Origin: Saprospira sp. CCB-QB6
GTDB taxonomy: Bacteria > Bacteroidota > Bacteroidia > Chitinophagales > Saprospiraceae
Direction of reading: 5' to 3'
Assembly (NCBI RefSeq): GCF_028464065.1
Contig: NZ_CP116808.1
Location: 3,253,501 to 3,317,500, forward strand
DNA: 64,000 bases
In this document: one piece after another, positions 376 to 51,089 of the stretch
Layout of the letters: the number at the start of each line of letters is the position of its first letter
Position numbering within the stretch: the stretch's first letter is position 1
Notes under the pieces: model-generated
Told to the model about the DNA's origin: nothing
Databases searched by the model: none
The model's input: the letters and a program-made list of their open reading frames with translations, nothing else
Translations under genes and position numbers: made by a program

Positions 376-538
376 AAAGGCCTGCCTTTGGGCGCCCGCA
401 GGGCGCCTTGCATTGGCTGAGCGATGCGCAGCAGTGGCCCAAAGGGCCAGACCCAGCGGGCAAAGCCCGCGCAGGGCCGAGCGAGCAGCGAGCTGCGGAG
501 CGTAGCGACCCTAGGCCGAAGGCCGTAGGGGCAGCCCC
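376..538 (-). repeat. Hairpin-mosaic element, copy 1
   Basis: Read on the minus strand it starts with a T-rich tract and GGGGCTG and ends with CAGCC, so the outer helix is GGCTG/CAGCC. The inner helix is GCAG/CTGC. Variable hairpins include GCGGGC/GCCCGC and GGCCC/GGGCC. The flanking stretch 309–375 is also GC-rich but does not match the core. It lies between the SRP RNA terminator and the TetR gene. Confidence 0.75.
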
Positions 539-3525: not shown

Positions 3526-4221
3526 ATGCAAGAAAAAATTCAAGAACTTCAAGCCCTTTGCGAAGCCTACTTTCAAGCGCATCCCGAAGCCGAAAAGACC
3601 AAAATTCAACTGCTTTATATTGCAGAAGATGAGGAGGGCGAATTGATCGAAGATGAACATAATGGCCTCTCGTATTATGCTGGAGAGCCCCCTTATATCG
3701 AGGATTGGCCCTATATGGAGGACACGCCCATGCAACATATGCTGACTCTCGATCTTCGGGCCTTACCGCAACTCAATAAGCAGTTTATTAGCCTTTTTGT
3801 GGCCGAACCCTTTGAGAACGAAGCCTACGAGCCCTACAATCCCGATACCTTTCTCTATTACCATTCTGGCCAAGTTCGAGATGAGGAACAGGATGCACCC
3901 ATTGAACCCGTAGACGAACAGCGGCCCATTGCGATGTTCCCCATTGAGGTCCCCACAGCGGCTTTCCTCAACGAGGAAGAGGTCGAAGAAGCCGAGGACT
4001 GGGATGGCGAAGATTTTGAACTGAGCGAAGAACTCAACGCCATTCAATTGGCTATTTTTAACTGCTCTTATATCGGCGGAAAGCCTATCTGGCTACAAAG
4101 TAAAGATTATGAAGGCCCCTTTATCGGGCAGTTTGATATGGAGCTGGTGCCAGAAATTAACCTGGGCGATTCCGGCATCATGTATATCTTTGAAGAGACC
4201 GCCTTTTGGCAATGTTACTAA
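3526..4221 (+). CDS. DUF1963/YwqG-like protein
   Basis: A 231-residue acidic soluble protein with no signal peptide. The C-terminal third contains YIGGKPIWLQ, FIGQFDMELV and GDSGIMYIFEETAFWQCY. These resemble the conserved blocks of the YwqG/DUF1963 family (GG-P-W, Q-D, and G-x-Y-F). The middle is rich in Glu and Asp (about residues 115–170). Members of this family have no established biochemical role. It stands alone, followed by a strong terminator. Confidence 0.6.
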   Translation: MQEKIQELQALCEAYFQAHPEAEKTKIQLLYIAEDEEGELIEDEHNGLSYYAGEPPYIEDWPYMEDTPMQHMLTLDLRALPQLNKQFISLFVAEPFENEAYEPYNPDTFLYYHSGQVRDEEQDAPIEPVDEQRPIAMFPIEVPTAAFLNEEEVEEAEDWDGEDFELSEELNAIQLAIFNCSYIGGKPIWLQSKDYEGPFIGQFDMELVPEINLGDSGIMYIFEETAFWQCY

Positions 4222-4229
4222 ATAATTCT

Positions 4230-4267
4230 CGCCAGCTTTTCTTTTAGAAGGGCTGGCTTTTTCTTTT
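4230..4267 (+). terminator. Intrinsic terminator
   Basis: GCCAGC pairs with GCTGGC around a 15-base spacer and is followed by TTTTTCTTTTT. The T-tract runs straight into hairpin-mosaic copy 2. Confidence 0.8.
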
Positions 4268-4269
4268 TA

Positions 4270-4436
4270 GGGGCTGCCCCGCCCTTCGGGCGGGTCGGGC
4301 TGTCTCGCAGCTCGCTGATCGCTCGGCCCTGCGCCGCCAAGGGCGGCTGGGTCTGGCCCTGCGGGCCACTGCTGTCCATCCCTCAGCCAAGTCGCTACGC
4401 TCCTTTGCGGCGGCTTGGCCGCCTGTTCCATCCAAA
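4270..4436 (+). repeat. Hairpin-mosaic element, copy 2
   Basis: A good reference copy. The outer helix is GGCTG (4272–4276) with CAGCC (4384–4388); the inner helix is GCAG (4307–4310) with CTGC (4369–4372). Variable hairpins are GCCC/GGGC, GCCGCC/GGCGGC and GGCCC/GGGCC. A GC-rich tail with CGGCGGCTTGGCCGCCTG follows. Confidence 0.85.
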
Positions 4437-4511
4437 AGGACCAAAATTAAATGCGGTAAAAAGCTTTAATCCTATTACTTTTGTGCGGAACTTTAAAGCT
4501 GCTCTAAAGAA

Positions 4512-7132: not shown

Positions 7133-8034
7133 TGCTTTATCTAAGCTGTTTTGGGGCGGCCGCCACTATGCTGCGGGGCTAAATTTAATGAGGGTTTCAA
7201 CCCTCATCTATATACTATTGCGAAGCAAGACCATTGTTGCGGTGGGTTTTAACCTACCGAAACGGTCCTCCGCAGCGCTGGGCCTTTTGGCCTTCGGCCA
7301 TCTTGGCCGAGATATAGGCTAGAGGATACAGGACCCTAGGGCCAAGGCCCTAGGCTAAGGTATTGGTCGCCCCCTACGTCGAGGGGGCTTTTTGTGCTTC
7401 GGTCAATGGTTATTGTGGGGGATAGCCATAAGGGCAGAGAAAAAGCGAACAAGGACTTTAGTCCGTCAGTTCGCTCCGTCAACAACCCTGGGCTTCAGCC
7501 CAGGGCAGTAAGAATAGAAGTTGTTAAACAAGCTTAAGGGTATAGTGAGCGTATTGTCCCATGGGCTGAAGCCCATGGTTGCGGGTCTATGCAAACTAGC
7601 GGGCTAAAGCCCTTGTTTGCTTGTATTAGCATTCGTTATGGGCCGATGGTTTTAACCATCGGCTCATTTTTATTGCAGTCAGTGTGGCCTCTTTTGTTGC
7701 TGTAGGTTTCAACCTACAGACCCATATAGCCCAATAGCTGTAAAGATGATAATAAATGAGGAGATACAGGACCTTAGGAGACAAAATCTCTATCATTTAG
7801 CCCTGTGGGTTGAAACCCACAGCAAAAAGGGCATCCATTCTAGCCCTAATAAAATGAGCTGAAGGTTAAAACCTTCAGCCCATAACTAGAGGAGGGGGAA
7901 TTGACTAAGGGAAGGTAGATAAAAGGCCAAAAGATTTAAGTTAATGCGGCTTTTAAGCTGTATTCCATAAAAATATTGCGGAGCAATACCAACGGTTGCC
8001 TGGCTGTAGGTTTCAACCTACAGGCCCATATAGC

Positions 8035-8182
8035 AGGCGGCACAGCCGCCGCAAAGGAGCGAAGCGACTGGCCTAGCGATGCGGAGGGGTGGCCGCAGGC
8101 CAGACCAAGGCGGCAAAGCCGCCGCAGGGCCGAGCGAACAGCGAGCCCCAAAGCGTAGCGCCTGCCGCAGGCAGGAGGCCCC
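8035..8182 (-). repeat. Hairpin-mosaic element, copy 3
   Basis: On the minus strand the outer helix is GGCCT/AGGCC and the inner helix is GGGG/CCCC. Variable hairpins are CCTGCC/GGCAGG and GGCGGC/GCCGCC. An eight-base T-tract precedes GGGG. Confidence 0.8.
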
Positions 8183-8323
8183 AAAAAAAACGCCCTACTG
8201 ATTATAGAGAAAAAGGCCTAGATCCTGCTTTATCGTGAGGCTGAAAAAAGCCCAAGGGGCTTTGGGCTAGCAATTTTTGTTAAAAACCTATATATTGCTT
8301 TTCGTAAAGATTCAATCAAACCG

Positions 8324-8336
8324 TTAAAGCTATAGT
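8324..8336 (+). promoter_or_regulatory. 13-base motif repeated before mod and before res
   Basis: TTAAAGCTATAGT occurs here, four bases before the mod start codon, and identically at 9994–10006, about 50 bases before res. It could be an operator or transcription signal shared by the two genes. The function is unknown. Confidence 0.4.
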
Positions 8337-8339
8337 AGA

Positions 8340-9971
8340 ATGCCTACATTAAATTGGATAGGAAAGGAAAAGGTGCTTACGCATCATTTGGATGTTCCTT
8401 ATCGTCCCCTTTCCCTTTCTTATACTTATGGTGCAGCCCAAAGTGCTAATAAGATTATTCATGGCGATAATTTGCTGGCCCTAAAGTCTTTGTTGCCCGC
8501 CTATGAAGGCAAAATTAAGTGCATCTATATTGACCCCCCTTATAATACCGGAAACGAAGGCTGGGTCTATAATGATAATGTGAAAGACCCTAAGATCCAA
8601 AAGTGGTTGGGCGAGGTGGTCGGTAAAGAAAGTGAAGACCTGAGCCGACATGATAAATGGCTCTGTATGATGTATCCTCGACTAAAACTATTGCATAAGT
8701 TGCTGGCAGAGGATGGGGCTATCTTTATCTCTATTGATGATAATGAACAAGCACATCTGAAATTGCTCATGGATGAGATTTTTGGGGAAGGTAATTTTGT
8801 TGAAAAATTTGCTTGGTATAAAACATACTCTCCATCAAATTTATCACATAAGAGTAAGAAGTGCTTAGAATATATCTTGTGTTATGAGAAAAGAAGAAAC
8901 AATAATCGATATAGAGGCCTTCTAAAGGTAAATAAGGCAGATAACCCATTGATAAAGAGTAGTAATAATGTTAAGGAGCTGCGTTTCCCTAAAGACGCTG
9001 TTACAAGCTCAATGACTAAAGATTTTCTTTTTAAGCGAGGAGCTTATGGGACAACTGTTACATCCGTTTTATTAAAAGAGGATGTTTGGTTCAGGGATGG
9101 ACAATTTGAATCAGATCTAATTTTAGAGTCTAAATTTATATGGACACAAGAAAAATTGAATGAAGAAATTAGAAATGGGACTAAAATTATTTTTAAAACA
9201 AAAAGTCTAGCACCTAGATATGATAAAGCGTCATATAAACCAGAAGTGCCACGTAACCTGGTAGATAAAAATGATTTTGTTGGTACTACAGAAGAAGGAG
9301 GAGTACTGCTTAAAAATATTTTTGGAAAAAATGTTTTCAGTTATCCCAAGCCGCCTTCTTTAATAAAGTATATAGTGAACTTTTTATCAGACCCCGACTC
9401 CATCATCTTAGATTCTTTTGCGGGTTCTGGGACAACGGCCCAGGCGGTATTAGAATTAAACAAAGAAGATGGGGGGAATCGTCAGTTTATTTTGATAGAG
9501 ATGGAGGAATATGCGGAGCGGATCACGGCGGAGCGGGTACGCAGAGTGATAGATGGATATGGAGCGGGGGCTAAAGCCGTAGCGGGTCTGGGAGGAGACT
9601 TTGGGTTTTATCATTTGGGGCCGAGCATATTTAAGGAGAGCAATCCCAACTTTTTGAATGAGGATTTGGAGGAAGAGGAATTGCGGAAGTATATATTTTA
9701 TACGGAGACGGGCTCTTTGAAAGGCTATCGGGAAAGGGGAGCGGAGGCCCCCTACTTTATGGGGACTTATGAAGATCGGGACTATTTCTTTTTTTATGAG
9801 AAAGAAGAGAGTTGTCATTTGACCTATAAGTTTTTGGAGCAGATAGAGTTGTCATCAGATGAGATAAGGGGAGTTGTAATTTATGCTGACTTAAGCTTGA
9901 TTGGGGATGAATTTTTAGCATCGGGGAAGATTATTTTTAAGAAGATTCCGAGAGATATAGCTAGAATATAG
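8340..9971 (+). CDS. mod: Type III restriction–modification DNA methyltransferase (Mod subunit)
   Basis: A 543-residue adenine-N6 methyltransferase that sets both protection and sequence specificity of a Type III R–M enzyme. Motif IV DPPYNTG is near residue 65 and the AdoMet-binding FAGSGTTAQAVLELN near residue 360. This beta-class order (catalytic motif first) is that of Mod proteins. The segment between them, about residues 155–340 (roughly 8.80–9.36 kb), is the target-recognition region and is clearly more AT-rich than the flanking halves, suggesting exchange of that domain. The res gene follows on the same strand. The sequence TTAAAGCTATAGT stands just before the start codon. Confidence 0.92.
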   Translation: MPTLNWIGKEKVLTHHLDVPYRPLSLSYTYGAAQSANKIIHGDNLLALKSLLPAYEGKIKCIYIDPPYNTGNEGWVYNDNVKDPKIQKWLGEVVGKESEDLSRHDKWLCMMYPRLKLLHKLLAEDGAIFISIDDNEQAHLKLLMDEIFGEGNFVEKFAWYKTYSPSNLSHKSKKCLEYILCYEKRRNNNRYRGLLKVNKADNPLIKSSNNVKELRFPKDAVTSSMTKDFLFKRGAYGTTVTSVLLKEDVWFRDGQFESDLILESKFIWTQEKLNEEIRNGTKIIFKTKSLAPRYDKASYKPEVPRNLVDKNDFVGTTEEGGVLLKNIFGKNVFSYPKPPSLIKYIVNFLSDPDSIILDSFAGSGTTAQAVLELNKEDGGNRQFILIEMEEYAERITAERVRRVIDGYGAGAKAVAGLGGDFGFYHLGPSIFKESNPNFLNEDLEEEELRKYIFYTETGSLKGYRERGAEAPYFMGTYEDRDYFFFYEKEESCHLTYKFLEQIELSSDEIRGVVIYADLSLIGDEFLASGKIIFKKIPRDIARI

Positions 9972-10054
9972 GGAGGCGGAGTGAAAGCAAGCCTTAAAGC
10001 TATAGTGAGAAGAGACATATTATATAGACAGTGCATTAACAGACAAGAGCAAAG

Positions 10055-12775
10055 ATGGAATTAAAGGAATACCAACAGGAAGTCATTCAAGACCTAAGAC
10101 GATTTATTAAATGCTGGGAGCAAAAAAAGGATTTAAAATCGGCATTTAAGTTTTTCTGGGAGTCTCAGGGCGTTCAGATGAAGAGCGAGAATATAGTAGA
10201 TGGGATGCAGGCCTACAAGCCGAACTTGGGTGCGGAGATTCCGCATGTATGTATAAAGGTGCCTACGGCTGGGGGGAAGACTTTTTTAGCTTGTAATGCT
10301 TTGGGGGAAATAGCGGAAGCTTTGCCAGCTACGCAGGCTAACCTTGTATTGTGGTTAGTGCCCTCCAATACAATTTTAGAGCAAACGCTAAAGAACTTAA
10401 AGGATCCGGAGCATCCTTATCGGCGGAGATTGAACGTATTATTTAATAATAGAGTCGCTGTTTATAGCAAGGATCAGGTTTTGCAGGGAGCGAGCTTTAA
10501 TGTGGGCTCGGTACGAGAGCAGTTAAATATCTTGGTGATGAGTTTTGACAGCTTTCGGTCCAGAAAGAAAGTGGATCGTCTCATTTATAGGGAGAATGGA
10601 GCCTTGGCTCCTTTCATAGATGTATTGAACAATACGGATTTTCTTTTAGAGGATGAAAATGTGGATAAATATTCATTGATGAACGTCATCCGCAGTCTTC
10701 GTCCTATTTGTATTATAGATGAAAGCCATCGGGCGGAAAGTGATTTGAGTGTAGAAATGTTGCAGAACATGTACCCCTCATTTGTATTGGACTTGACTGC
10801 TACGCCTAGAACGAATAGCAATTTAATCAGTGTAATATCGGCCAGTCGTTTGAAAGACGAGCAGATGATTAAGTTGCCAGTAATTGTCTATAATCATAAT
10901 AAGCCGCAGGATGTAATCAGTTCGGCTTTAGACATGCGTCATAACTTAGAAGTAACGGCTAGGGAGCAGGCAGATGAGTACATTCGGCCAATTGTTCTTT
11001 TTCAGGCAGAGCCAAAGACAAAAAAGGATAGTGAAACTTTTCAGAAGATCAAGGCGAAGCTAATTGCCAAGGGGGTTCCTGCAGAGCAGATTGCCATTAA
11101 AACGGCATATATCAATGAATTAAAGTCTGTGGACCTCATGTCTAGAGATTGCGAAATTCGCTATATCATTACAGTAAATGCATTGAAGGAGGGTTGGGAT
11201 TGTCCTTTTGCCTATATTTTGGCTACGATTGCTAGTAAGTCCTCAAAAACAGATGTAGAGCAGATCTTGGGGCGTGTCTTGCGTCTACCTTATACAAGAG
11301 AGCAAAAGAACCCCTTGCTCAATATGGCATATGTCTTTACCTCTTCAAGTAATTTTACGGCCACCTTAGATAATATTATAGAGGGCTTGAATAAGGCGGG
11401 GTTTTCGGATGCCAAGGAACGCTCTGAAATAATCGTTTTAGATGAGCAAGAAGAAGTTGTAGAGGGGGTACAGGGTACAATTGATGAGGAGTTAGTAAGA
11501 GGAGCGATTAGTCAGTTCTTAGATGAGGGGGAATTAGATGCTATTCTAGAAAGTAATGCGCCTATTCGAGCCGAATTACAAACTGCAGATCCTGCCCAAA
11601 AAGAGAAGATTAGATCGGCTTTATTGGATAAGTTGACAGAGAAAGCATTAGCAGTACATCAGCAAGATCAGCATAAGCGAATTGCCGAGCGAGAAGAAGA
11701 CCCATTTCTAAGTAAACAAGAGAGCAGAATGAAAAAAATGATCAATACCACTTCTATTAAGGAAGATTATCGTTCTTATGTGGAGGGCATTCAGTTGCCG
11801 CAATTTTTTCAAGAGGCGCCTAAGAAATTAGAGCAGTTATTTTCGAGGGGTAAGGAAGAAACAGGCTATCTACTCTTTGATAAAGAATCATTGAAGGAAG
11901 ACTTTAAGCTGGCCAAGGCGAGTGTAGACATTAACTTTAATCCTTCAGATAAAGAGATTTATGAAATTGATATCCAAGAGGGAGAGAACAGTCGGGAAGG
12001 TAATGTAAAGTATAGTCGATTTAGTTCTGACAAGGCCTCGAGGTTTTTAGACTACTTAAATTCGCAAAGCAATAGGGATAAGAAACTAGAGCGGACAGCT
12101 GAGGCAATAGTTAGTTCAATGGGGAAGATGCCACCATATTCAGATCAGGATTTAAAGAAATATGTCTTGAGAGTTTTTGAGGCTGGCGAATTTAAAGATC
12201 AGGAGATCTATGACTTGGCGACTAATATGCAGGCGATTAAGATTATTAAAAATCACATTGATCGTTGTGGGACTTCTTTTGCTCAGGATGAATTTTACAA
12301 AAGGCTAGCGAGTAGAAAGGTGATAATTCGGCCTTCTTATCAGTTTACCTTAACCAATACTTATATTGCTAAAGGAGCGTCTAATCTAGCCAAGGGATTG
12401 TATACCAAAGAAGAAGAGGGGAATAAATTTGAGAATGAGGTAATAGATCGAGTTGCGGCCTTAGATAATGTTGTGTTTTGGCATCGCATACCTAGTCGTA
12501 AAGGATTCTGCATCAATGGCCCAATTAACCATTATCCCGATTTTTTAATCTACACAAAAAATAAAGGGATTATCCTTGTAGAAACCAAGGGAGGGCATTT
12601 ATCTGCTACTGAAGATACCAAAGAGAAAGCTCGTTTGGGAGGCCAGTGGGCAAGTCAAGCCAATGCTTTAGGAGATGGGTTTCAGTATAATTACTGTATG
12701 GTATTTAGAGAAAATACGGCTATCGATGGGTCTTATACAGTAACGGATTTGATAGCGCTTTTGGCTGAGTTGTAG
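10055..12775 (+). CDS. res: Type III restriction endonuclease (Res subunit)
   Basis: A 906-residue helicase-nuclease that works with Mod to cleave DNA with unmethylated inversely oriented sites. Superfamily 2 motifs are visible: Walker A VPTAGGKT near residue 69, the DESH motif II (IIDESHRAES) near 221, DLTATPR motif III, and LKEGWDCPFAYIL with ILGRVLRLPY for motifs V and VI. The C-terminal nuclease domain has a PD-(D/E)xK pattern, PDFLIY then VETKGGH near residues 828–845. It is full length with no frameshift. The stop is followed 7 bases later by hairpin-mosaic copy 4. Confidence 0.92.
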   Translation: MELKEYQQEVIQDLRRFIKCWEQKKDLKSAFKFFWESQGVQMKSENIVDGMQAYKPNLGAEIPHVCIKVPTAGGKTFLACNALGEIAEALPATQANLVLWLVPSNTILEQTLKNLKDPEHPYRRRLNVLFNNRVAVYSKDQVLQGASFNVGSVREQLNILVMSFDSFRSRKKVDRLIYRENGALAPFIDVLNNTDFLLEDENVDKYSLMNVIRSLRPICIIDESHRAESDLSVEMLQNMYPSFVLDLTATPRTNSNLISVISASRLKDEQMIKLPVIVYNHNKPQDVISSALDMRHNLEVTAREQADEYIRPIVLFQAEPKTKKDSETFQKIKAKLIAKGVPAEQIAIKTAYINELKSVDLMSRDCEIRYIITVNALKEGWDCPFAYILATIASKSSKTDVEQILGRVLRLPYTREQKNPLLNMAYVFTSSSNFTATLDNIIEGLNKAGFSDAKERSEIIVLDEQEEVVEGVQGTIDEELVRGAISQFLDEGELDAILESNAPIRAELQTADPAQKEKIRSALLDKLTEKALAVHQQDQHKRIAEREEDPFLSKQESRMKKMINTTSIKEDYRSYVEGIQLPQFFQEAPKKLEQLFSRGKEETGYLLFDKESLKEDFKLAKASVDINFNPSDKEIYEIDIQEGENSREGNVKYSRFSSDKASRFLDYLNSQSNRDKKLERTAEAIVSSMGKMPPYSDQDLKKYVLRVFEAGEFKDQEIYDLATNMQAIKIIKNHIDRCGTSFAQDEFYKRLASRKVIIRPSYQFTLTNTYIAKGASNLAKGLYTKEEEGNKFENEVIDRVAALDNVVFWHRIPSRKGFCINGPINHYPDFLIYTKNKGIILVETKGGHLSATEDTKEKARLGGQWASQANALGDGFQYNYCMVFRENTAIDGSYTVTDLIALLAEL

Positions 12776-12781
12776 TTTTTT

Positions 12782-12930
12782 GGGGCCCGCGGCCAGCTTG
12801 CTGGCCGCCGCTATGCTGCGGGGCTCACAGGTCTGTTCGGCCCTTCGGCGGCTGTGCCGCCTCGGTCTGGCCTTCGGCCACCCCTTCGCAGCGCTGGGCC
12901 GTTTGCCCTTCGGCCATGGGGCCGAGATAT
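12782..12930 (+). repeat. Hairpin-mosaic element, copy 4
   Basis: It begins 7 bases after the res stop codon. The outer helix is GGCCC/GGGCC and the inner helix is GGGG/CCCC, extended as GCTGCGGGG against CCCCTTCGCAGC. The first variable hairpin is GGCCAGC/GCTGGCC. Confidence 0.85.
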
Positions 12931-13627: not shown

Positions 13628-13777
13628 AGGCGGCGCAGCCGCCGCAAAGGAGCGAAGCGACTGGCCTAGCGATGCGGCGGGGTGGCCGTAAGGCCAGACC
13701 GAGCCAGCGAAGCTGGCGAAGGGCCGAGCAGACCTGCGAGCCCCAAAGCGTAGCGCCTGCCGCAGGCAGGAGGCCCC
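13627..13777 (-). repeat. Hairpin-mosaic element, copy 5
   Basis: Paralogue of copy 3 in the duplicated cassette. Outer helix GGCCT/AGGCC, inner helix GGGG/CCCC. The middle hairpin is GCCAGC/GCTGGC here but GGCGGC/GCCGCC in copy 3, so even recent duplicates have swapped this stem. Confidence 0.8.
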
Positions 13778-18845: not shown

Positions 18846-19008
18846 GGGGCCTCCCGCAGCCCTTTAAAGTGGGGCTGCGGGCGCTACGGTCCGCAGCTCG
18901 CAGGTCTGCTCGGCCCTTCAGCGCTAAAGCGCTTCGGTCTGGCCCTGCGGGCCACTGCTCCCCATCGCTAGTCCGTTCGGCCCAAGGGCCGGGCGGCTGC
19001 GCCGCCCC
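18846..19008 (+). repeat. Hairpin-mosaic element, copy 6
   Basis: It starts 9 bases after the flotillin stop. The inner helix is GCAG/CTGC; the outer is GGCCT against AGTCC, with one mismatch. The first hairpin is GCAGCCC/GGGGCTGC. It faces copy 7 across a shared terminator. Confidence 0.75.
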
Positions 19009-19086: not shown

Positions 19087-19240
19087 AGGCGGCCTAGCCG
19101 CCGCAGAGGCGCGCAGCGCCTGGCTGAGGGATGGAAAGGGGGGCGGCGAAGCCGCAGACCCAGCGGGCGCAGCCCGCGCAGGGCCGAGCGAATAGCGAGC
19201 CCCGACACAGCCCGACCCGCCCGCAGGGCGGGGCAGCCCC
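19087..19240 (-). repeat. Hairpin-mosaic element, copy 7
   Basis: Outer helix GGCTG/CAGCC combined with inner helix GGGG/CCCC, a combination different from copy 2, so the two helices vary independently. Middle hairpin GCGGGC/GCCCGC. Confidence 0.8.
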
Positions 19241-19262: not shown

Positions 19263-22200
19263 ATGGCAAAGGAAAATATAGCCCCAGAACTAGAAGAGGA
19301 GCAAAATAGCCAACTCGAAAGCGGTACCTATGAGGTCATTAAGGGCCGATTGAACCGCTATGGAAAAGAGTTGCGAGGCCGCCTAGATGAGCTGAATGTG
19401 GCTCGGAAAGAGGTCTTTGGCGCTATTGAGCTAGAACTCAAAGGGAATTCTCGCATCAATACCGAAAATAATTGTGTGGCCCGCGACATTATTGCGGTGG
19501 GCGACTTCTGTATTTTTGGTTATAATGTGCAAATGGGCCTTCGGTCCGAAATTAAGCTAGAAGATATTTTTAGCGCCTATCAATTTAATGGCGACCGCTT
19601 TGAGGAAACGGAGTTGAGCGCTCTGTTTGAGGGCCAAAATCGCCAGTTTTTAACCGACTTTAGCAACTTATTCCGCTATTATAAGGATGCGGTTTTTGCC
19701 AAATTCGCCATTGAGCAGAATAGTCCATTTTTCTATATGGTCTTTCAGCTTAGTGAGGATGTGAACGACAGCAAAATGTTTAAGTGGGAGGTTCGAGATG
19801 GGCAATTGCTCTATTTCAACCAACCAGGCGAGCATCGCTATAAATTTCCGGCTCAGCATGAGTTTGAGTGGAAAAAAGTGAGTCGGGAAATGTATCGTTA
19901 TGGCGATCATCCGCATATTTCCATTTTGGATCGTGTGTTTGTAGAAACCGTGGGTGGCGATTTGACCATCAAGGTAGAAGACAATACGGCTGATGGGCAG
20001 GGAATTTATCGGGAAGAGGTGGTTCAAAAGGACCAAAAACTAGAAGATGCAGACATCCAATTTGCCGATTTGGGCAATTTGATTGTCTTGCGCATGGCCC
20101 CTTATTTAGAAGATGCCCGTTATTTTGTCTTTAATGAAAAGCTACAAGCTGTAGAGCGAATTGACACCTTAGAACATTCGGGAATTTTGCTGCCGGGCAG
20201 CCAAGGGCTCATCTTTGCCAATGGTTTTTATCTGCAAACTGGCGACTACAAAGTCTTTGATAAGGCGGGCGGTAGTGGCTATAAGTTTGAGCGCCGGGTG
20301 CAATCTCCCAATGGAGAAGACCATTTATTCAGCTTCTACAATCAGCAAAAAGGGACCTATATTTTGCTCTCTTATAATGTGATTGAGCAGCAGGTGGCCA
20401 CGCCTATTCATTGCCATGGTTACACCCTTTTCCCGAATGGAGAACTCTGTTATTTTAGAGCAGAAGAGAGTGCGACCAAGCACCATATGATTCAGATTTG
20501 GCAAACGCCTTATATTGAGGGCGACATCATCCCCTCTGAGCATACCGATAGCTTTTTGTACAAGGTGGGCAACCGCGATATTGTACGGGCCATGGCCGAA
20601 TGTCAAGAGCTACTGAGCTTATTGGGCAAGGATGAAACCTATAGCGATCTTTATTTTGATCTGACCAAAAAATCGAATGACATCCTTGATGCCTATTATT
20701 GGATCAAGGACCCTCAGGCTTTTGGGATCGATGCGCCCTTGGGCGAGATTCGTCAAGCGGCCAATGCCGCCATTGATGAGTTTGAGAAAGTGCAGGCCAT
20801 CAAAAAGGCGAGTAAAGAAAGTATTCAGGAAGTGGGGCAGCGGGCCAATACCTTATTTAAGGAGGTCGAGCAAGCCAGCTTTAATCAGATTGGCATCTTC
20901 GTCAACTTCTTATCTGAGTTACGGATTATCCGTGGGGAAATCATCTCGCTCAAGGACTTGCGTTATGCAGACCTCCCTTATATTGAAGGCTTAGAGGCCC
21001 AAGCTGCCGAAAAGCTAGAGCTTCTTTCTACCGAATGTGTGGCCTTTTTGCTGCGGCCCGATGCTTTGGAGCCCTATATGCAAAAAGTAGATGAGGCCAA
21101 AAAGGAAATTCCGGCGGTAGAAACTGCTCAGCAAGGAAAAAAACTAGAAGAGCGCATTGATGGCATTGGTAAAGAGCTAGAAATGTTGATCGAGATTGTG
21201 TCGAACCTCAAAATTGAAGATGCGACCCAAACCACTCGAATTATCGACAGCATTACCGATATTTTCTCCCTGCTCAATCAAATTAAAGCGGCCCTTCGTC
21301 GCCGCCTCAAAGAGCTCACTTCTGCCGAGGGCCAAGCTGAATTTGCGGCCCAGATGAAGCTGATCGACCAGTCGATCATCAACTATATTGACATCTCGGA
21401 TACGCCCAGCAAATGCGAGGAGTACCTGAGTAAATTGATGATTCAGGTAGAAGAGCTAGAAAGTAAATTTGCCGAATTTGATGAGTTTATCCTCAAGATT
21501 TCGGAAAAGCGGGAAGAGGTCTACAACGTATTTGAGACCAAAAAGCTCAGCTTGGTCGAGGCCATCAACCGTCGCTCATCGGCTTTGCAAACTGCAGCCG
21601 AGCGGATTTTGAATGGGGTGCGCAATCGGGCCAATAAATTAAAATCGGTGGTCGAGATTAACGGCTTTTTTGCCTCTGACCTCATGATTGATAAGCTGCG
21701 TGAAAGCATTGAGCAGCTTAGAGAATTGGGCGATAGCAATAAGGCGGGCGATCTACAAACCCAGCTCAAAACCATTCAGGAAGATGCTTTGCGTCAGCTT
21801 CGGGATAAGGAAGACCTTTTCCAGGGCGGGGGCAATGCCATCCGCTTTGGTCGCCATAGTTTTGCGGTCAATACCCAAACTCTAGACTTGACCATGGTGC
21901 CTCGTTCGGGCGGTATGTATTATCATTTGACGGGAACGGGCTTCTTTCAGGAAGTTGAGGACCCAGAATTTTTAGCCACTAAATCGGTTTGGGACCAAAG
22001 TTACCCTTCTGAAAATGCCAAGGTCTATCGAGCCGAATTTTTGGCTTATTTGGTGCTCAAAGAACTGGAAGCTGAGCAAAACTGGCTCAAAGAAGATGAA
22101 ATTTTGCCCTATGTGCAGAAGTTCATGGCGAGCCGCTACCAAGATGGCTACAACAAGGGAATTCACGATGAGGATGCGGCGCAGATATTGGGCAGTTTGC

Positions 22201-24265: not shown

Positions 24266-24413
24266 GGGGCTGCCCCAGCCTTTGGCTGGGTCGGGCTGTC
24301 TCGCAGCTCGCTGTTCGCTCGGCCCTTCAGCCGCCTTTGGCGGCTTCGGTCTGGCCTTCGGCCACTGCTGCCCATCCCTCAGCCTGCGGCGGCTTCGCCG
24401 CCTGCAAAACCGT
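24266..24413 (+). repeat. Hairpin-mosaic element, copy 8
   Basis: Outer helix GGCTG/CAGCC, inner GCAG/CTGC. The first hairpin is AGCC/GGCT where copy 2 has GCCC/GGGC. Between this and copy 9 (24414–24567) there is GC-rich sequence with no gene. Confidence 0.8.
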
Positions 24414-24567: not shown

Positions 24568-24692
24568 ATTCGGCCTAGCGATGTGCAGCAGTGGCCGTCA
24601 GGCCAGACCGAAGCCCGAAGGGCTGAAGGGCCGAGCGAATAGCGAGCTGCGAAACGTAGCGCCGCAAGGCCGCAGGCCGCAGCGGAGGCCCC
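24568..24692 (-). repeat. Hairpin-mosaic element, copy 9
   Basis: Minus-strand copy facing copy 8. Outer helix GGCCT/AGGCC, inner GCAG/CTGC, middle hairpin AGCCC/GGGCT. Its T-tract is the tail of the adjacent minus-strand terminator. Confidence 0.8.
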
Positions 24693-24752: not shown

Positions 24753-27700
24753 TTATTTCACTTCTAGGCGGATACCTTGAGAATGTGAAGAAAATTCTGG
24801 CGCGTACATGCATTGAATGCTGCTAATTCCGTTGCTAAAGTCGCCTTTTTGGGCTACTCGAACAGGGTATTCAAAGACATAGGTTCCTTTGCTCAGATAA
24901 GAGAAAAAGAAGTGCGTAGCGGCATCTTTGGTGCTTTCGTAATAGCCTAAGCCACCTTGGTATTTGTATTGGCTGAGCACATTGGTGGGCTCGAAAGCGG
25001 CGGCTCTTTGGTCTTTGAGATGGACATATTCCATATCTCGGTCGACACGAAGTTCGATGCGGACCATGACCAAATCGCCTACTTCAAGGCCTTTTTCGGC
25101 GGTGATGGGCTGTAATTCTAGACCTCGATCGCCTTTTACTTGCTTAAAGAGCTGCTTTTTGAGTTGCAAAGGCGTTTCTTCAAAGCTTTCAATCTTATCG
25201 AGTTGCTCAAAATACTGCCAGTAGATAGCGCCCCAAGCTACAGAAGCATTGGGATTTTTGATTTCTACTTGGGCCATTTTCGGTTCAATCTCCTTGGCAG
25301 ACCAGCGCTTTTTGATGTAGCCAGTGCCAGGTTCGGGATTCAACGCTTGTTGGTCCAGTAGTTCTCCCCCCAATTTGATATCAATGGGTTGGCTATCGAC
25401 CAAATAGTTTTCTCCACGGGCCAAAAGGGCATAACAAGCGGCTGCGGTTGCCTTAGTGGTTTTCCAATGCGTCGTTTGCTTGGCTTTGAGCAACCAAGTT
25501 TTGAGTGCCTCCACCGTTTCTTGATCATTGGCCACCTCATCAAAGAGTTCGATCATCAAACAATGGCGTTCGATGGGCAATTCATACCAGAAATAGCCAT
25601 GTGGCGACTGCCAGTACATGCCCATTTCTTCCGATTTGAGGGCTCGTTCTTTCAAGGATTTGATAATGCTCTGTTGTACTTCGGGAAGGTTTTCGTCGCG
25701 GTGCAGGGCAAGGGCAATCATGCCTTGCATGTAAATCGACTTCTTGAGGGCGTAAGCCTGCATTTGTCCAGTATAATAGGCTCTAGCCTCTCTTAGGCGG
25801 CGGCTTTTCAACTCCACCTTAGGGAAAAAGCTGCGGGCATAGAAATAATGGATCACCATATAGTCCAGATGGTCCTTTTTGAGGTAAGCTTCTGGATCTT
25901 CTTGGCGTTTGGCCGTCGCTTGCAAGCGATCGTAATGATCGAGCAGTTGATTATCAATGTAACGAACTGCTTTGATAATCATATCTTGGCTCATGGGCTC
26001 ATTTTCTTGCGCCACGCCCATTACTTGCAAATGGCCCATGCCTTCTACAATATATTGGCTGATGTACCAGCTATCGCGGCCACCTGGGAACCAAGGGAAA
26101 CCGCCATTGCCGAGCTGGCGATCGGCCAGTTTGCGCAAGGCTTGTTTTTGTTCTTGGCCCATGCGATTGAGATCAAACAAAACGCCTAGATGCTTCTTTT
26201 GTTGGGCCTCTGATTGGGCCTGCAAAACCCAGGGGGTTTCTTCCAAAAGGGCATTTTTGAGTGCTTGGTTTTTGCTCAAATTGCTTTCTAGAGCTTTAGA
26301 GCCAGAGGCTTTCCATGCCTCAAACACCCGCTTAATTTTGGGATGTGAATTGGCCACATTAGAGGCCAAACTGTTGGCATAATAGCGAGAGAACAACTGC
26401 TCACTACATTCATGGGGGTATTCCATGAGGTAGGGGAGCGACTGCACCGCATACCAAGCCGGGTTAGGCGTAAACTCTAAAGTATAGCTATAGTGTTCGA
26501 GGGTATTCGATTTGCTGAGTTCTTGCATACGCTTAAACTCAAAGTTTTTATTGGTCTTGCCACGAACGGGCAAAGGCATGCTTTCGGTCACCAACATACG
26601 GTTGCTCAAAACAGGCAAGCTACTTTCCTCTCCATCGCTAAATTGTCCAGCTTTGGCGACAATTCGATGCACAACAGGAGTTGTCCAGTTGCTAGGAATC
26701 TCCAATTTCCAGCTTAGGGCCGTAGCGCCTTTGGCTTTTAGGCTAAAGCTTTGGCGATTGTTTTTATTGGCCCATTCGGTATCAATGGCTTGCATGCTAT
26801 AGGCATCAAAAAGCAACAATTGGGCTTCGCCTTCTAGCGGATCGTCTACCAAAGAGTTGATCTTGGCCGAAAACTCCATTTTATCGCCTTGGCGGAAGAA
26901 GCGGGGGGCATTAGGAACGACCATAAGGTCCTTTTGCGTCTGTACAAGCGCTTCTTTTAATCCTACTTTGAGGTCTTGGGTATGCGCCAAAAGCATCAAA
27001 TGCCAGCGAGTAAGGGCTTCATTCATTGTAAAGGATAAAATGACATTTCCTTCTTTGTCGGTGCGCAGTTGTGGGAAGAAAAAGACGGTTTCATTGAGGT
27101 TGGTGCGGACCTTTACGTCTCCTAAATCTTCTGCATCTTTATCGCTGGCTTCTTTAGACGCTTCAGCTAGCCCACTATCGGCAAGAGGGGGGGCAGGGGC
27201 AACAGCTTCCTTCTTTTCTGCTGCTCCAGCAAGCTGCATATCCTCCATCATAGGCTCTTCTTCCATAACGACATTGTCTGATTCTGTAACACTTAGTGTT
27301 CTAGAACGAGACTTATACATTCTTCTAGGGCTAAAGCCCCAATCATAGAAAGAAAAGCCCTGCCAGTTGAGGCTACTCCATTTGTGGCTAGGGTAGCTAT
27401 AAGAGAGGTTCCAGTCGTAGGCTACTACTAGGTTAGCTTGTTCTACATACATACAGTCGGTGGACCAGTTAGCCGTGCCATAATAAGCCCCATATAGCGA
27501 CAAATTCCAATCATGTCCAGCCAAGGCATCTAATGAAGCATCATAGAGCGAGGCCACTAATTCCGCTTCTACTGCGGCCTTATCGGGACCTGTAATCTTG
27601 AGCTCCCAGCGTTCTTCTTGGCCAGGCTGTAGCTTATCTCTAAAGGTAGAGAGTTCTATGTTTAGCTCTTTGTTCGTATGTGGAACATAAACATTGATGC

Positions 27701-30700
27701 GTTGGCTAAAGCTGCGGTTATAGCGCAGGCCGATTAGGCGGAAATAGAGGTTCCCCCGATCATCTTCCTGAACGGTATAGCTCTGTTTATTCCATTTTTC
27801 GCCTAGTTGCAACCAACTTCTTTCGCTAACGCCTTTCCCTTTTTGATCGCGCTCAAAGAGTACAGGGAAATCTGTAGCTGAAGTTAGAGCAAATTCAATC
27901 GTTTCGCCAGGTTCTACTGTGAAGCTTGTTTGGTTGGCAAAGAGGAGCTCTTGTACATTTGCTTTTTTAGTTTGGCTATTAAACAAACGGAACTCTCGTT
28001 CTAGCTTGATTTCTTGGCCATACTTATCGGTAGTTTTTATAGTCAGGCGATAGTAGCCTGCGGGCCACTTCTTGAGCAATTTCTGCAGATCAATTTCTTT
28101 TTGTTCTGCGGTGTTGATGCTGTTTTTTCCCTGAGTTTTAATGACGGCCCAAGTTCGGCTTTGGTCCTCTTGCTTATAGGCAATATGTGGAAAAGCCGCT
28201 TTGAACTCTTGCTCTCCCAAGCTATAATAATCGGGCTGCTCCCATTGGCGTTTAACATAAATGTTTTGGGGCTCTTCTAGGCGCTCCCAGCTCAATTCGA
28301 GCAGAGCGGGCTCAAAGCCTCCATTGAGGTTGCGGCTATTGAGTTTTAGCTTGCCCAGCTTTTGTCCTTGGTCCAATTCGCTTTCCAAGTTAACAGAAAG
28401 GTCTAGGGCGATAGCACCTACCCGAACAGTGGTTTGGCTAGAACGGGTCTCGCCATTGATGTCGGTCACATCCACATAAATGGTATAGTTAAAGACGGGC
28501 TGCTTATCTAAGCTGATGCTTTTGTCTGGAACGGCCTCAAATTCAATTTTGGCCACTCCTTTCTCATCCGTTACGCCTTCTCCTTTGGTAATTTCTTGGC
28601 TTTGGCCCGACCAGGGGTTCCAGCCCCAATAACGCCAATAGGGGAAGCGCACTTCTCGCACTACTCGATAGCTGAATTTGGCCTCACTAATAGCAGGGCC
28701 CGCCAAGGCTTCTGCCTGAGCAAAGACAGCCACTTGATCATTGAGCTTATAGGCTTCTTGCTGAGGCAAGAAGTTTACCTCAAATTTGGGCCGCTTGTAT
28801 TCTTCTACCAAGATACTATGCTCACTATAATAGCCTTGCTCCAAAACTCGAATACTCATTTCTCCCATCAAGCCTGTTGTCGGAGCAGTGAAACTGCCTT
28901 GCAAACTACCATATTCATTGGTCTTGAGTCTTAGCTCTTCTAGCTTTTGCTCATTGACATCAAAAAAGGCAACCTTATATTCTTTATTCTTGAGGAGTTC
29001 ATAGCTTTCTCCTTTGCGGTATAAGACAATCCCCTTAAAATAAATCGTTTGCCCAGGGCGATAAATGGCCCGATCGCTAAAAAAGCGAGTTTCTTCCCGC
29101 CCATTTTCTCTAGGCGCATCATAATCGTAATTATAAAAGCTGCTTTCTGGCAAAAGAAAGTCTTTCCCTTTCTCTACCCGAATGCTATAGCTGTAGTAAT
29201 CGTCATCTTTCTTGAGCTCCTTGCTTAGCGCATAGCCCATTTCATCCGTAAGTACCGACTTAAGGCGCTTCCAGTTGTATCTATGTTGTCGCTCTCTAAA
29301 TTCTACTTTTACTCCTTTTTGAGGTTCTCCCGTCCAACGATTGATGACAATAAACTCATCTTGCTCCTTTTCTTGCCGCTGAATGAGACCCAAATTGGTA
29401 AATTGAACAACGGCTATCGTATGGGCATTTTTAGCATAGCTAAAGTCCGCATTAGCCGAAAACTGAAGGACATAAATACCAGGATCAGCCTGCGCCGGAA
29501 TCATTAACTCGGTCCCATGCCACTGAAAATCTCCAGAGTCAATTAACTGATGAGACTGGCTATATAGAGGATCTCTTTTGGCCAAAAAGTCTATTTGCCC
29601 CTGATCTGCATAGCGAGTGTCCAGAAAATGCTCTAGCTCCGACTCACTCAACTTGATGAGGCGCAAATGTACCTGACTCAAGTTTTTATAATCCAAACGA
29701 ATGAGGCCCGCCTGATTCAAGGGTAAATACCGCTCAATCTCCATAGATAAGCCCTTTTGCGCCAACTCTACTTTTAAGGTTTGTGCTTGCTTGGCCCCAA
29801 AACTCTTGGGGTAATCCTCAATGATGGCTGTTGCAATAGAATCTGCCACTTTTAAGGCCCAACGCGCCTTGGGATCTGGCCGACTAGGCGAATAAACCCG
29901 CCCTATTTGCTTATAATAAGTCGCTTTGGCAAAAATAACTTCGGCCACAGCATCCTGCCCCTCATATTTCTCTTCTAAGGCCGTTAAGGCTGCCAAATAA
30001 AGCTGCTGCTTATCCTTATTAATAGATTGTGAATAAGTCCACTTCAAGCGACGCAACTCAAACTGTAACAGGACCAAAGGCGACTTCCGCTCTAGCGATC
30101 TGGCCACAATTTTCTGATAAAGTTTAAGCGTCTGCCATTTATGCGAAAAGCTATCTCGGCTCTCAATTTTTTGCTCAACAAACTCTTGCCCAATGGCAAA
30201 AAACGCAGGCGATTCTACATAAAACTGATAAGCGGGCTGACTCAAATAGCTGTTCTCATTCTCAAAGAAGTTCAGGGCTCTTTGGGCCAATAGTTCATAA
30301 AGCGTAGGCTGCAAATCCGCATCAAAATCTGTCCGAGACAAAATGGGCGCAAATTGCCCCAACTCCAATTCTAAGGCCGCCGGATTCGATAAAGAAGCCC
30401 AATACAAAGCAAATGCCTGCTCCGTAATTCGCTCAATATCCCAAGTCCGAATGTCCTTGAGCTCCAAATCATTCACCTTGCTCCGATCCGAAAACTTATA
30501 ATAATGATTGTTCAAATACTCATGATAAAGCTGAGCTACCATAGACTGCAAGAGCGCTTTTTCACTGCCCTCGGCCTTTTGCATCTCTTCTTCCAAGCGA
30601 TAAATGGACTTCACTAAACCGTCCTCTTCCAAACTGCCCTGAAACTTGTTGTAATACAACAAGCCCTTGACATAATGCGCCGCTCTAGCCGGTCCAGCCT

Positions 30701-30869
30701 CTGCTTTTCGAATAATTTGCAGCAAACTGTCCGTCTTTTTAAGGGCCGATTCCGGCAAGCCCTGCCTATCTAAAGAATCAATCTCTAGCCAGGCTTTTTC
30801 ATAGTTCTGGGAAAACATCTGGGTACTAATTAAAAGGCTAAATAATAGCCATAATGGGTATCGTTTCAT
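24753..30869 (-). CDS. Bacterial alpha-2-macroglobulin-family protein
   Basis: A 2038-residue envelope protein with a signal peptide (hydrophobic residues 5–20, then FSQ). The centre contains the MG domains typical of the family (FSDRAIYRPGQTIYFKG; VEEYKRPKFEV) and an alpha-2-macroglobulin core near 1250–1350. A CxEQ thioester-type motif occurs as HECSEQ near residue 1488, followed by the helical thioester domain. Bacterial members are thought to trap attacking proteases in the periplasm, often with a penicillin-binding protein 1C gene beside them; none is adjacent here. A disordered, Ala/Glu-rich insert with SRSRTLSVTESDNVVMEEE lies at about 1180–1250. Confidence 0.88.
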   Translation of the reverse strand: MKRYPLWLLFSLLISTQMFSQNYEKAWLEIDSLDRQGLPESALKKTDSLLQIIRKAEAGPARAAHYVKGLLYYNKFQGSLEEDGLVKSIYRLEEEMQKAEGSEKALLQSMVAQLYHEYLNNHYYKFSDRSKVNDLELKDIRTWDIERITEQAFALYWASLSNPAALELELGQFAPILSRTDFDADLQPTLYELLAQRALNFFENENSYLSQPAYQFYVESPAFFAIGQEFVEQKIESRDSFSHKWQTLKLYQKIVARSLERKSPLVLLQFELRRLKWTYSQSINKDKQQLYLAALTALEEKYEGQDAVAEVIFAKATYYKQIGRVYSPSRPDPKARWALKVADSIATAIIEDYPKSFGAKQAQTLKVELAQKGLSMEIERYLPLNQAGLIRLDYKNLSQVHLRLIKLSESELEHFLDTRYADQGQIDFLAKRDPLYSQSHQLIDSGDFQWHGTELMIPAQADPGIYVLQFSANADFSYAKNAHTIAVVQFTNLGLIQRQEKEQDEFIVINRWTGEPQKGVKVEFRERQHRYNWKRLKSVLTDEMGYALSKELKKDDDYYSYSIRVEKGKDFLLPESSFYNYDYDAPRENGREETRFFSDRAIYRPGQTIYFKGIVLYRKGESYELLKNKEYKVAFFDVNEQKLEELRLKTNEYGSLQGSFTAPTTGLMGEMSIRVLEQGYYSEHSILVEEYKRPKFEVNFLPQQEAYKLNDQVAVFAQAEALAGPAISEAKFSYRVVREVRFPYWRYWGWNPWSGQSQEITKGEGVTDEKGVAKIEFEAVPDKSISLDKQPVFNYTIYVDVTDINGETRSSQTTVRVGAIALDLSVNLESELDQGQKLGKLKLNSRNLNGGFEPALLELSWERLEEPQNIYVKRQWEQPDYYSLGEQEFKAAFPHIAYKQEDQSRTWAVIKTQGKNSINTAEQKEIDLQKLLKKWPAGYYRLTIKTTDKYGQEIKLEREFRLFNSQTKKANVQELLFANQTSFTVEPGETIEFALTSATDFPVLFERDQKGKGVSERSWLQLGEKWNKQSYTVQEDDRGNLYFRLIGLRYNRSFSQRINVYVPHTNKELNIELSTFRDKLQPGQEERWELKITGPDKAAVEAELVASLYDASLDALAGHDWNLSLYGAYYGTANWSTDCMYVEQANLVVAYDWNLSYSYPSHKWSSLNWQGFSFYDWGFSPRRMYKSRSRTLSVTESDNVVMEEEPMMEDMQLAGAAEKKEAVAPAPPLADSGLAEASKEASDKDAEDLGDVKVRTNLNETVFFFPQLRTDKEGNVILSFTMNEALTRWHLMLLAHTQDLKVGLKEALVQTQKDLMVVPNAPRFFRQGDKMEFSAKINSLVDDPLEGEAQLLLFDAYSMQAIDTEWANKNNRQSFSLKAKGATALSWKLEIPSNWTTPVVHRIVAKAGQFSDGEESSLPVLSNRMLVTESMPLPVRGKTNKNFEFKRMQELSKSNTLEHYSYTLEFTPNPAWYAVQSLPYLMEYPHECSEQLFSRYYANSLASNVANSHPKIKRVFEAWKASGSKALESNLSKNQALKNALLEETPWVLQAQSEAQQKKHLGVLFDLNRMGQEQKQALRKLADRQLGNGGFPWFPGGRDSWYISQYIVEGMGHLQVMGVAQENEPMSQDMIIKAVRYIDNQLLDHYDRLQATAKRQEDPEAYLKKDHLDYMVIHYFYARSFFPKVELKSRRLREARAYYTGQMQAYALKKSIYMQGMIALALHRDENLPEVQQSIIKSLKERALKSEEMGMYWQSPHGYFWYELPIERHCLMIELFDEVANDQETVEALKTWLLKAKQTTHWKTTKATAAACYALLARGENYLVDSQPIDIKLGGELLDQQALNPEPGTGYIKKRWSAKEIEPKMAQVEIKNPNASVAWGAIYWQYFEQLDKIESFEETPLQLKKQLFKQVKGDRGLELQPITAEKGLEVGDLVMVRIELRVDRDMEYVHLKDQRAAAFEPTNVLSQYKYQGGLGYYESTKDAATHFFFSYLSKGTYVFEYPVRVAQKGDFSNGISSIQCMYAPEFSSHSQGIRLEVK

Positions 30870-30980: not shown

Positions 30981-31174
30981 GGGGCCTCCGCTGCGGCCTG
31001 CGGCCTTGCGGCGGTTACTCCCTTTGGTCGTCGAACTGCGCCCTAAAGGGCTTGTTGTCGCTTTGGGGCTCGCTATTCGCTCGGCCCTTCAGGCTACACT
31101 TCGTTTCGCCTTCGGTCTGGCCCTGTGGGCCACCCCGCCGCATCGCTAGGCCTGCGGCCCTTCGGGCCTGTAGG
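30981..31174 (+). repeat. Hairpin-mosaic element, copy 10
   Basis: Outer helix GGCCT (30983–30987) with AGGCC (31148–31152); inner GGGG (31065–31068) with CCCC (31133–31136). The first variable region is unusually long, with CCCTAAAGGG inside. The following 31175–31381 holds AT-rich DNA with two TAAACAACTGTTTA-like palindromes and no gene. Confidence 0.8.
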
Positions 31175-31381
31175 ATGGATATTATAAACCTACAGCTTGG
31201 CCCTACAGAATCTTAAGCAAAAAATACAACCGTCTCCAATATTTCGCTGCTAAGCGAGCTTAGCTCCCCACAGGAAGGGCCTAAACAACTGTTTAGGGTC
31301 AAATGTATTTTGCATAAGGGGTTTAAACAACTGTTTAAGCTAAGAATTTAGAGCTGTTGAGTATCTTTTAAGCAGTTTTAT

Positions 31382-31518
31382 GGCCCAGCGATGCGGAGGG
31401 GTGGCCGCAGGCCAGACCGAAGGCGAAACGAAGTGAAGCCTGAAGGGCCGAGCAGAACTGCGAGCCCCGAAGCGTAGCGGCGGCCGACCTAGCCGAAGGC
31501 TAGCCGGCCGCGGGCCCC
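31382..31518 (-). repeat. Hairpin-mosaic element, copy 11
   Basis: Minus strand, facing copy 10. Outer GGCCC/GGGCC, inner GGGG/CCCC, first hairpin CTAGCC/GGCTAG. It starts directly at the T-tract of the amidase terminator. Confidence 0.8.
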
Positions 31519-35378: not shown

Positions 35379-35540
35379 GGGGCTGCCCCGCCCTTCGGGC
35401 GGGTCGCTACGCTTCGGGGCTCGCAGTTCTGCTCGGCCCTTCAGGCTTCACTTCGTTTCGCCTTCGGTCTGGCCTGCGGCCACCCGTCGGGCAGCTCAGC
35501 CGCGGCGCTTTGCGCCTTTGCGGCGGCTTCGCCGCCTGTC
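35379..35540 (+). repeat. Hairpin-mosaic element, copy 12
   Basis: Outer GGCTG/CAGCC; inner GGGG opposite ACCC, a three-pair version. Both flanking genes are on the minus strand, so this copy is oriented against them. Confidence 0.75.
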
Positions 35541-36743: not shown

Positions 36744-36958
36744 GGCGGCGCAGCCGCCCTTGGCTGAGGGGCTGTAGCAGGGCCGCCGAAGGCGGCAGAC
36801 CCAGCGGGCACCGCCCGCGCAGGGCCGAGCAGACCTGCGAGCTGCGCAATGGCCCGACCCGAGCGAGAACTCATGAGGGTTTTAACCCTCATTTTGTATA
36901 GCTTCGCAAAGCGAAACCGCTTTGCGCTGGGTTTCAACCCGGCGGAAGGGGCAGCCCC
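36744..36958 (-). repeat. Hairpin-mosaic element, copy 13, with inserted short hairpins
   Basis: Outer GGCTG/CAGCC and inner GCAG/CTGC on the minus strand. The first variable arm is expanded by about 80 bases (36868–36947) and contains ATGAGGG/CCCTCAT and GCTGGG/CCCGGC hairpins of the GGTTTYAACC type plus an AAAGCG/CGCTTT stem. The rest of the core is intact. Confidence 0.75.
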
Positions 36959-48404: not shown

Positions 48405-48443
48405 TGGAGACTTATCATCTTCAACTACAGCTTTACAGCATGA

Positions 48444-51087: not shown

Positions 51088-51089
51088 CA

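Follow-up and report, generated by a model that had tools for sequence, protein, structure and literature searches.

The genome of the marine predator Saprospira sp. CCB-QB6 carries a high-copy family of structured elements of about 120 bp that mostly alternate in orientation, are evenly spaced and stay at fixed sites where their hairpins are replaced. Both arms of their helices change together, and copies facing each other over a block of genes resemble each other more than background pairs do. The best explanation, to which we give a probability of about 0.38, is that these elements are folded-DNA anchors, set in facing pairs that bound gene blocks of about 4 kb. We favor folded DNA that joins the ends of a block because the facing pairs are matched, regularly spaced and fixed in position, and because their hairpins are swapped. 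The main rival is an old mobile element that spread in pairs.

We analyzed a window of 64,000 nucleotides of the CCB-QB6 chromosome, which hosts 24 intact copies and one interrupted copy of a single family defined by the core pattern GCTCGGCCC...GGTCTGGC. An earlier sequence-only reading had counted about 24 copies, and this count holds; a covariance model also recovers all 24 intact ones. The size given there was 130 to 200 bp; 21 of the 24 units measure 113 to 137 bp, and the other three (167, 172 and 197 bp) all contain nested modules. The span singled out in that reading, 4270-4436, contains a copy at 4270-4388, which comes after a terminator-like hairpin and T-run (4231-4269) downstream of the open reading frame 3526-4221; the remainder, 4389-4436, is a neighboring hairpin outside the common unit. 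We rejected an intrinsic terminator as the identity of the element, since the T-run precedes the unit and some copies follow a separate terminator-like hairpin. Gene positions are longest-ORF calls, except on the annotated plasmid. The copies of the window, all found by both core pattern and covariance model apart from the interrupted one, are the following:

415-538, minus strand, copy with outer type GGCTG/CAGCC
4270-4388, plus strand, copy named in the sequence-only reading
7153-7284, plus strand, interrupted copy, both ends kept, other palindromes replacing the inner domain
8070-8182, minus strand, copy with outer type GGCCT/AGGCC
12782-12900, plus strand, copy with outer type GGCCC/GGGCC
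13663-13777, minus strand, copy with outer type GGCCT/AGGCC
18847-18974, plus strand, copy, start set by hand
19122-19240, minus strand, copy
24266-24384, plus strand, copy
24572-24692, minus strand, copy matched with that at 30981 across the block 24753-30869
30981-31152, plus strand, copy with nested TTACTCCC module
31382-31518, minus strand, copy
35379-35501, plus strand, copy
36762-36958, minus strand, copy with nested palindromic module in hairpin H1
38496-38612, plus strand, copy
42990-43126, plus strand, copy
43199-43319, minus strand, copy
47902-48036, plus strand, copy, mosaic of two types
48504-48636, minus strand, copy
50954-51088, plus strand, copy
52333-52461, minus strand, copy
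55351-55517, plus strand, copy with nested TTACTCCC module
58413-58545, plus strand, copy
58731-58858, minus strand, copy
63873-63991, plus strand, copy

Each unit begins with GGGGC and ends with GCC. Along the element strand, in 5' to 3' order, it is composed of an outer helix P1 (GGCNN/NNGCC), hairpin H1, the 4-bp inner helix P2, a small hairpin, the constant helix P3, which closes the variable hairpin H3, and finally hairpin H4. At least three T lie directly before the start in 128 of the 143 measurable copies of a 464-kb sample of CCB-QB6; this T-run/GGGGC boundary is less marked in the relative genome G041. The local helix said to switch between GCA/TGC and ACA/TGT has one of these two forms in 59 of the 150 copies of the same sample, and the remaining 91 instead have a GC/GC stem with a five-base loop (mismatched in one or two of them). 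The constancy of the constant blocks is partly by construction, because the copies were sought by those blocks, unlike the variable arms, which were left free in the search. With one mismatch allowed, the core pattern also gave a false match inside a gene (run position 18689 of CCB-QB6).

The covariance model detected 242 copies in 696.5 kb of CCB-QB6, corresponding to approximately 1,450 copies per chromosome if they are evenly distributed. The sampled parts of three other Saprospira genomes (G001, G002 and G003) are equally rich. Match coordinates on the second contigs of G001 and G002 coincide with those on the plasmids of strains Lewin and WH. No match came from G004 and G005, two drafts assigned to the same genus, though other genera do match; either the element was lost there or the drafts are misplaced. 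In searches of samples with stricter filters, matches were found in at least 14 of 120 genomes of the same family (CCB-QB6 and G001 included), at least 4 of 198 in the order and at least 2 of 296 in the phylum. All of these belong to the same family, so that the search of other genomes suggested by the sequence-only reading returned relatives in this family only. The number of matches per genome in the family search was at least 41 in G041, at least 43 in G102, at least 14 in G014, at least 6 in G018, and at least 1 to 5 in the others. Phages gave no match, and among plasmids only two Saprospira records matched, NC_016936.1 and NZ_CP110855.1. These plasmids carry genes for purine synthesis (pur, gua) and phenylacetate (paa), and bear elements at about chromosomal density. 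A scan of the genome collection with the core pattern returned, among the matches listed, two S. grandis records and single exact matches in many unrelated genomes, which we took as chance.

The stranger part of the family, which could not be seen by the sequence-only reading, is its alternating and evenly spaced layout. In CCB-QB6, orientation alternates between neighbors in 198 of 223 cases (binomial P-value 1.4e-34), with 25 breaks. The same is seen in G001 (32 out of 36), G002 (34 out of 40) and G003 (30 out of 40), as well as on the plasmids of strain Lewin (19 out of 20) and strain WH (21 out of 21), for a total of 40 out of 41; the only break, on the Lewin plasmid, is a weaker match of the model, and with the strict pattern alternation is unbroken on both plasmids. 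When close pairs were held fixed, 161 of 186 neighbors alternated, compared to a mean of 97.5 and a maximum of 120 in 5,000 shuffles. On the annotated Lewin plasmid, copies alternate even inside the pur and paa gene runs. Hand tallies that excluded matches with E > 0.01 gave 28 alternating neighbors out of 38 in G102, which belongs to another genus (P-value 0.005), and 18 out of 39 in G041, which is not above chance. The layout is not inherent to the element, because G041 has many copies without alternation. The element can therefore multiply without this layout, which must depend on an additional factor, be it selection or a partner protein.

Spacing is also more even than chance. The coefficient of variation (CV) of the spacing of occupied gaps was 0.49 and 0.43 in two runs. 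Random choice among all gaps gave 0.92 and 0.98, and drawing only gaps of at least 60 bp gave 0.78 and 0.80; in both controls none of 2,000 draws was as low as observed. The T-run sides face each other across gene blocks of about 4 kb: these T-facing intervals (n = 53) have a mean of 3.8 kb and a CV of 0.38, compared to a mean of 1.5 kb and a CV of 0.88 for the 54 intervals with facing GCC ends. The 15 intervals between like-oriented neighbors, over two runs, have means of 3.8 and 4.7 kb and CVs of 0.26 and 0.21.

The sequence-only reading had also claimed that the outer and inner pairings switch in concert, and this is borne out by the 150 copies of the 464-kb sample. Of the 142 copies measurable for P1, 126 pair perfectly, with types GGCTG/CAGCC, GGCCT/AGGCC, GGCCC/GGGCC and also GGCTT/AAGCC. 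P2 is perfectly paired in 129 of 148, whereas independent shuffling of its arms (2,000 shuffles) gave 38.5 on average and never more than 55; the P2 types are GCAG/CTGC, GGGG/CCCC, AGGG/CCCT, GTGG/CCAC, GCCG/CGGC and rarer ones. The two helices were said to combine freely, and they do combine broadly, albeit unevenly. The covariance model, a step proposed in that reading, describes the core from P2 to P2' and was built from 54 of the 150 copies, chosen by hairpin length. Among these aligned cores, 95.8% of the cells pair. Both sides are changed in 203 cells and one side in a single cell; shuffles gave 67.5 two-sided cells (sd 6.8), and slid controls no more than 43. In relatives, 47 distinct cores (from 55 matches), which were aligned to the model and hence are biased toward its structure, gave 125 two-sided cells compared to 32.9 shuffled.

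We followed individual copies between genomes through 271 orthology queries over seven genome pairs, 162 of which were assessable. An element in the same orientation was found in 156, and 109 lacked anchors on both sides. Three further rows showed an opposite neighbor only, and there the model recovers the missed partner; the remaining three, apparently absent, derive from one false pattern match inside a gene. Among matched orthologous loci we found no true empty site against which a target-site duplication, as expected of a MITE, could be read, and one apparent absence is best explained by the interrupted copy at 7153-7284. Element positions are thus kept across four genomes at the testable sites, and the hairpins in them are replaced. 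Of the 156 orthologous pairs, 58 have the arms of H3 replaced wholesale, compared to 33 identical, 25 with a change in the loop only and one with a single compensated pair (39 were set aside). P2 is unchanged in 83 pairs and changed in both arms in 32, with 41 set aside; any one-arm change of P2 would fall among these 41, so we do not claim that there are none. Because H3 arms are replaced wholesale and P2 arms change on both sides at sites that are kept, whole hairpins have been exchanged at fixed positions. Exchange can also be nested, as at 43199, where either H1 alone or the whole P2 domain is replaced. Almost all covariation in this family is replacement of complete hairpin modules. Together with the 203 two-sided cells against one, wholesale replacement of H3 does not match the pair-by-pair change that selection on an RNA fold would leave. 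The original claim was that the fold is either selected or copied by a structure-dependent mechanism; the second option is a possible one, and the first, in the form of an RNA fold selected step by step, does not fit.

To compare copies with their neighbors, we used a text-matching ratio, which is a crude measure of likeness. In CCB-QB6 it was 0.773 for 59 T-facing pairs across a block, compared to a background of 0.687 (P-value 2e-8). It was 0.715 for 30 opposite neighbors with GCC ends facing across a gene (P-value 0.41) and 0.630, below background, for 32 opposite neighbors within one gap (P-value 0.037). In the sister genomes the likeness of T-facing pairs was weaker and not significant (0.712 compared to 0.664, 32 pairs, P-value 0.11). 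In 35 of 140 cases the facing partner resembled a copy more closely than the orthologue of that copy did; for the neighbor on the other side, this was so in 13 of 134. For example, the G001 orthologues of the copies at 24572 and 30981 are identical to each other and each different from its CCB-QB6 counterpart. Facing is not the sole factor, because like-oriented intervals are equally regular and like-oriented neighbors are also somewhat alike (0.729, 15 pairs, P-value 0.012). Two same-orientation copies 2.7 kb apart in L034 (16689-16802 and approximately 19398-19511) appear identical and have identical 5' flanks, which is probably a local duplication.

A folded-DNA anchor could account for these observations as follows. 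The elements would fold as DNA into hairpins or cruciforms, and the strand that is read would probably be the one opposite the T-run. Two inverted elements with their T-run sides inward would bound one gene block, on chromosome and plasmid alike. A putative structure-reading protein would bind the folded element and bring the flanking copies together, which would turn each gene block into a small loop or a topological unit. Where hairpins break or are nicked, repair may copy another element, often the facing partner, and such copy repair would swap whole hairpins and leave both arms of a helix matched. What the sequences show is the copy number in the sample, the paired changes, the replacement of whole hairpins at fixed sites, the alternation, the even spacing and, in CCB-QB6, the likeness of facing pairs; protein, looping, repair route and any benefit to the cell are what we infer. 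In its full extent, with the Saprospira chromosome and plasmid tied into several hundred gene-block loops by anchor pairs that are read by shape and ruled by orientation, and whose hairpins are swapped by structure-dependent copying, the proposal is rather unlikely. As an analogy, the orientation-coded loop anchors of animal genomes would be a counterpart in logic and not in kinship.

A non-autonomous mobile element of the REP/MITE type that spread long ago as inverted pairs and is now fixed would explain much of the same pattern, although we consider it somewhat unlikely. Copying by fold-back, for instance primed between the T-run and an A-run across the gene block, would place copies pairwise, and pairwise insertion would yield both the alternation and the greater likeness of facing pairs; the hairpins would persist through copying or transposition and not because they benefit the cell. 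Such an origin fits the high copy number, the intergenic position, the T-run/GGGGC boundary, the patchy copy number over the family and the many non-alternating copies of G041. What stands against it is that no gain or loss is seen at matched orthologous sites, that simple spread is not expected to give even spacing, and that Y1 transposase genes do not accompany the element. Within about 1.5 kb on each side of the three Y1_Tnp loci of CCB-QB6, one copy occurs at two loci and two copies at none, and over 34 genomes the presence of Y1 genes does not track that of the element.

The family falls within the broad class of interspersed palindromic repeats, and resembles REPs, BIMEs and REPINs as high-copy intergenic palindromes with complementary changes. 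REPs are described as 20 to 40 bp long, mostly tagged on one side with GTAG or CGTC, and with frequent G·T pairs in their stems (PMC3733652). In contrast, the Saprospira unit is a multi-hairpin element of about 120 bp that ends in GGGGC...GCC without such a tag, and G·T is rare in it. In BIMEs, regularly spaced REPs alternate in orientation (PMC2817692), whereas the alternation in Saprospira spans kilobases across genes. We rejected membership in the RAYT/REP system on the basis of the missing tag, the unit length, the lack of a transposase flanked by two copies and the lack of Y1 tracking.

It is distinctly improbable that the repeats are inert and that recombination among them produced their order as a side effect. 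Once alternation exists, it would survive both inversions between opposite copies and deletions between like ones, and genes would be deleted between the nearest like-oriented copies. Around one block we did detect inverted matches between G001 and both G002 and G003, and on our reading of two inverted matches the rearranged flanks of this G001/G002 block fit recombination at the elements. The only other case is a 446-bp match between CCB-QB6 and G003, and block inversion as a general cause was rejected. Starting from random order, however, recombination alone does not produce alternation, and it does not produce even spacing either; like-oriented copies at next-nearest positions persist throughout, and inert inserts inside operons would be expected to have been lost.

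Signs point to an element that acts as DNA rather than RNA. The sequence-only reading had proposed a structured RNA or DNA element, and of this the structured family with paired changes stands; mismatches, orientation, loops and folds favor DNA over RNA. A functional RNA fold is expected to tolerate G·U. In approximately 2,570 paired positions outside P3, we counted 12 G·T, 14 A·C and 53 other mismatches (the stem finder used for H3 favors Watson-Crick ends, which lowers all kinds equally), and RNA is disfavored because G·T is no commoner than A·C. Among the 138 copies with a gene on both sides, the gene next to the T side presents its 3' end in 75; in the other 63 that gene lies on the opposite strand and presents its 5' end. 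Orientation is therefore independent of transcription; it alternates even within runs of genes on the same strand. In 133 of 148 copies the H4 loop reads T(N)C or T(NN)C, and in 147 a C-G pair closes it; 38 of 70 H1 loops are of the same type, and G..A never occurs in either. On the opposite strand these become GNA or GNNA loops closed by C-G, which have been described as superstable DNA mini-hairpins (PMC4686876). When single-stranded DNA was folded and compared to shuffles, the opposite strand had the lower z-score in all six copies tried (for instance -3.47 compared to -1.58, with a small margin in some) and the lower energy in five of six. For H4 alone, with standard DNA parameters, the strands are equal in 134 of 148.

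It is, on these data, highly doubtful that the family is a structured RNA, or an element of mRNA ends, with selection acting on the fold of each copy. The strong paired changes in the variable helices would suit such a reading, and several copies sit directly after stop codons. The constant helix P3 has an invariant G·T in the CCB-QB6 copies (in relatives, this position is G·U in 36, G·C in 4, other in 3 and a gap in 4), which may be an RNA wobble and counts against the DNA reading. Yet one-sided changes amount to a single cell, and RNA folding of eight copies formed the outer helix in three and gave a z-score below -1.3 in only one. We also rejected a known RNA family: Rfam returned no match at the gathering score over the 64-kb window, and the best of seven weak matches to 4200-4500 scored 19.1 against a threshold of 65, in agreement with the original remark that no named family was recognized.

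Least probable of all is a role in self-recognition or DNA uptake like that of Haemophilus USS or Neisseria DUS, with transformation and recombination spreading the signals: USS and DUS have a comparably high copy number and a reported even spacing, and DNA uptake passes single-stranded DNA, which would favor hairpins, but the Saprospira elements are about 120 bp long, intergenic and alternating. The known signals are described in PMC1939737 as short and non-palindromic, with about 10% occurring as inverted repeats, without orientation bias and often inside genes (65% in H. influenzae, 35% in N. gonorrhoeae). The same source counts 1965 of them in one genome and refers to an earlier report of significant even spacing, taken to suggest a role in replication, repair or compaction, although in its author's view they are less even than compaction needs (PMC1939737).

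Two further systems share some of these features with the Saprospira family. The attC sites of integrons keep a conserved structure with varying arm sequence, fold from one DNA strand and lie behind genes, all of which recall the present elements; these, however, have GGGGC...GCC boundaries without R-box ends and occupy fixed sites around core genes rather than cassettes. The double-hairpin elements and GC clusters of organelle genomes are likewise repeated palindromes with changing stems and are treated as mobile, but they belong to other genomes and we know of no alternating kilobase layout among them.

In the part of the literature covered, on repeats, palindromes, alternation and even spacing in Saprospira and other bacteria, this family is not described. 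Single traits have precedents at other scales, namely alternation within BIMEs and even spacing of uptake sequences. The combination of genome-wide alternation, even spacing, stable positions, conserved structure and swapped hairpins is not described in the literature covered. The layout differs from that of the bacterial repeat families compared here and hints at an unknown way of organizing or copying DNA. Two questions become testable with it: by what means bacterial chromosomes are divided at the level of individual operons, and how the paired arms of repeats can change together without intermediates. S. grandis and its plasmid form a compact system in which to map contacts and assay binding.

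Other repeats accompany the family in the window. A nested module (GTTACTCCC..TTGGTCGTCGAACTGCG..hairpin..TTGTTGTCG) occurs in the 5' part of several copies, for example 30981-31152 and 55351-55517. A second palindrome family, with a GGTT..AACC core and varying outer arms (such as CTGTAGGTTGAAACCTACAG and TGAGGGTTAAAACCCTCA), in some places lies nested within the main element; its loci include 31152-31382, 7153-7284 and 36762-36958. The region 8182-12782, bounded by a facing element pair, hosts a gene pair that by eye resembles the DNA methylase and the helicase of a restriction-modification system, and the two flanking copies have no orthologous anchors in G001 and G002. Finally, two CRISPR-like arrays with the repeat CCTTTAATTGCACCTTTACGGAATTGAAAC lie at 48036-48504 and 51088-52333, and in both a shared leader-like stretch starts directly after the GCC end of an element.
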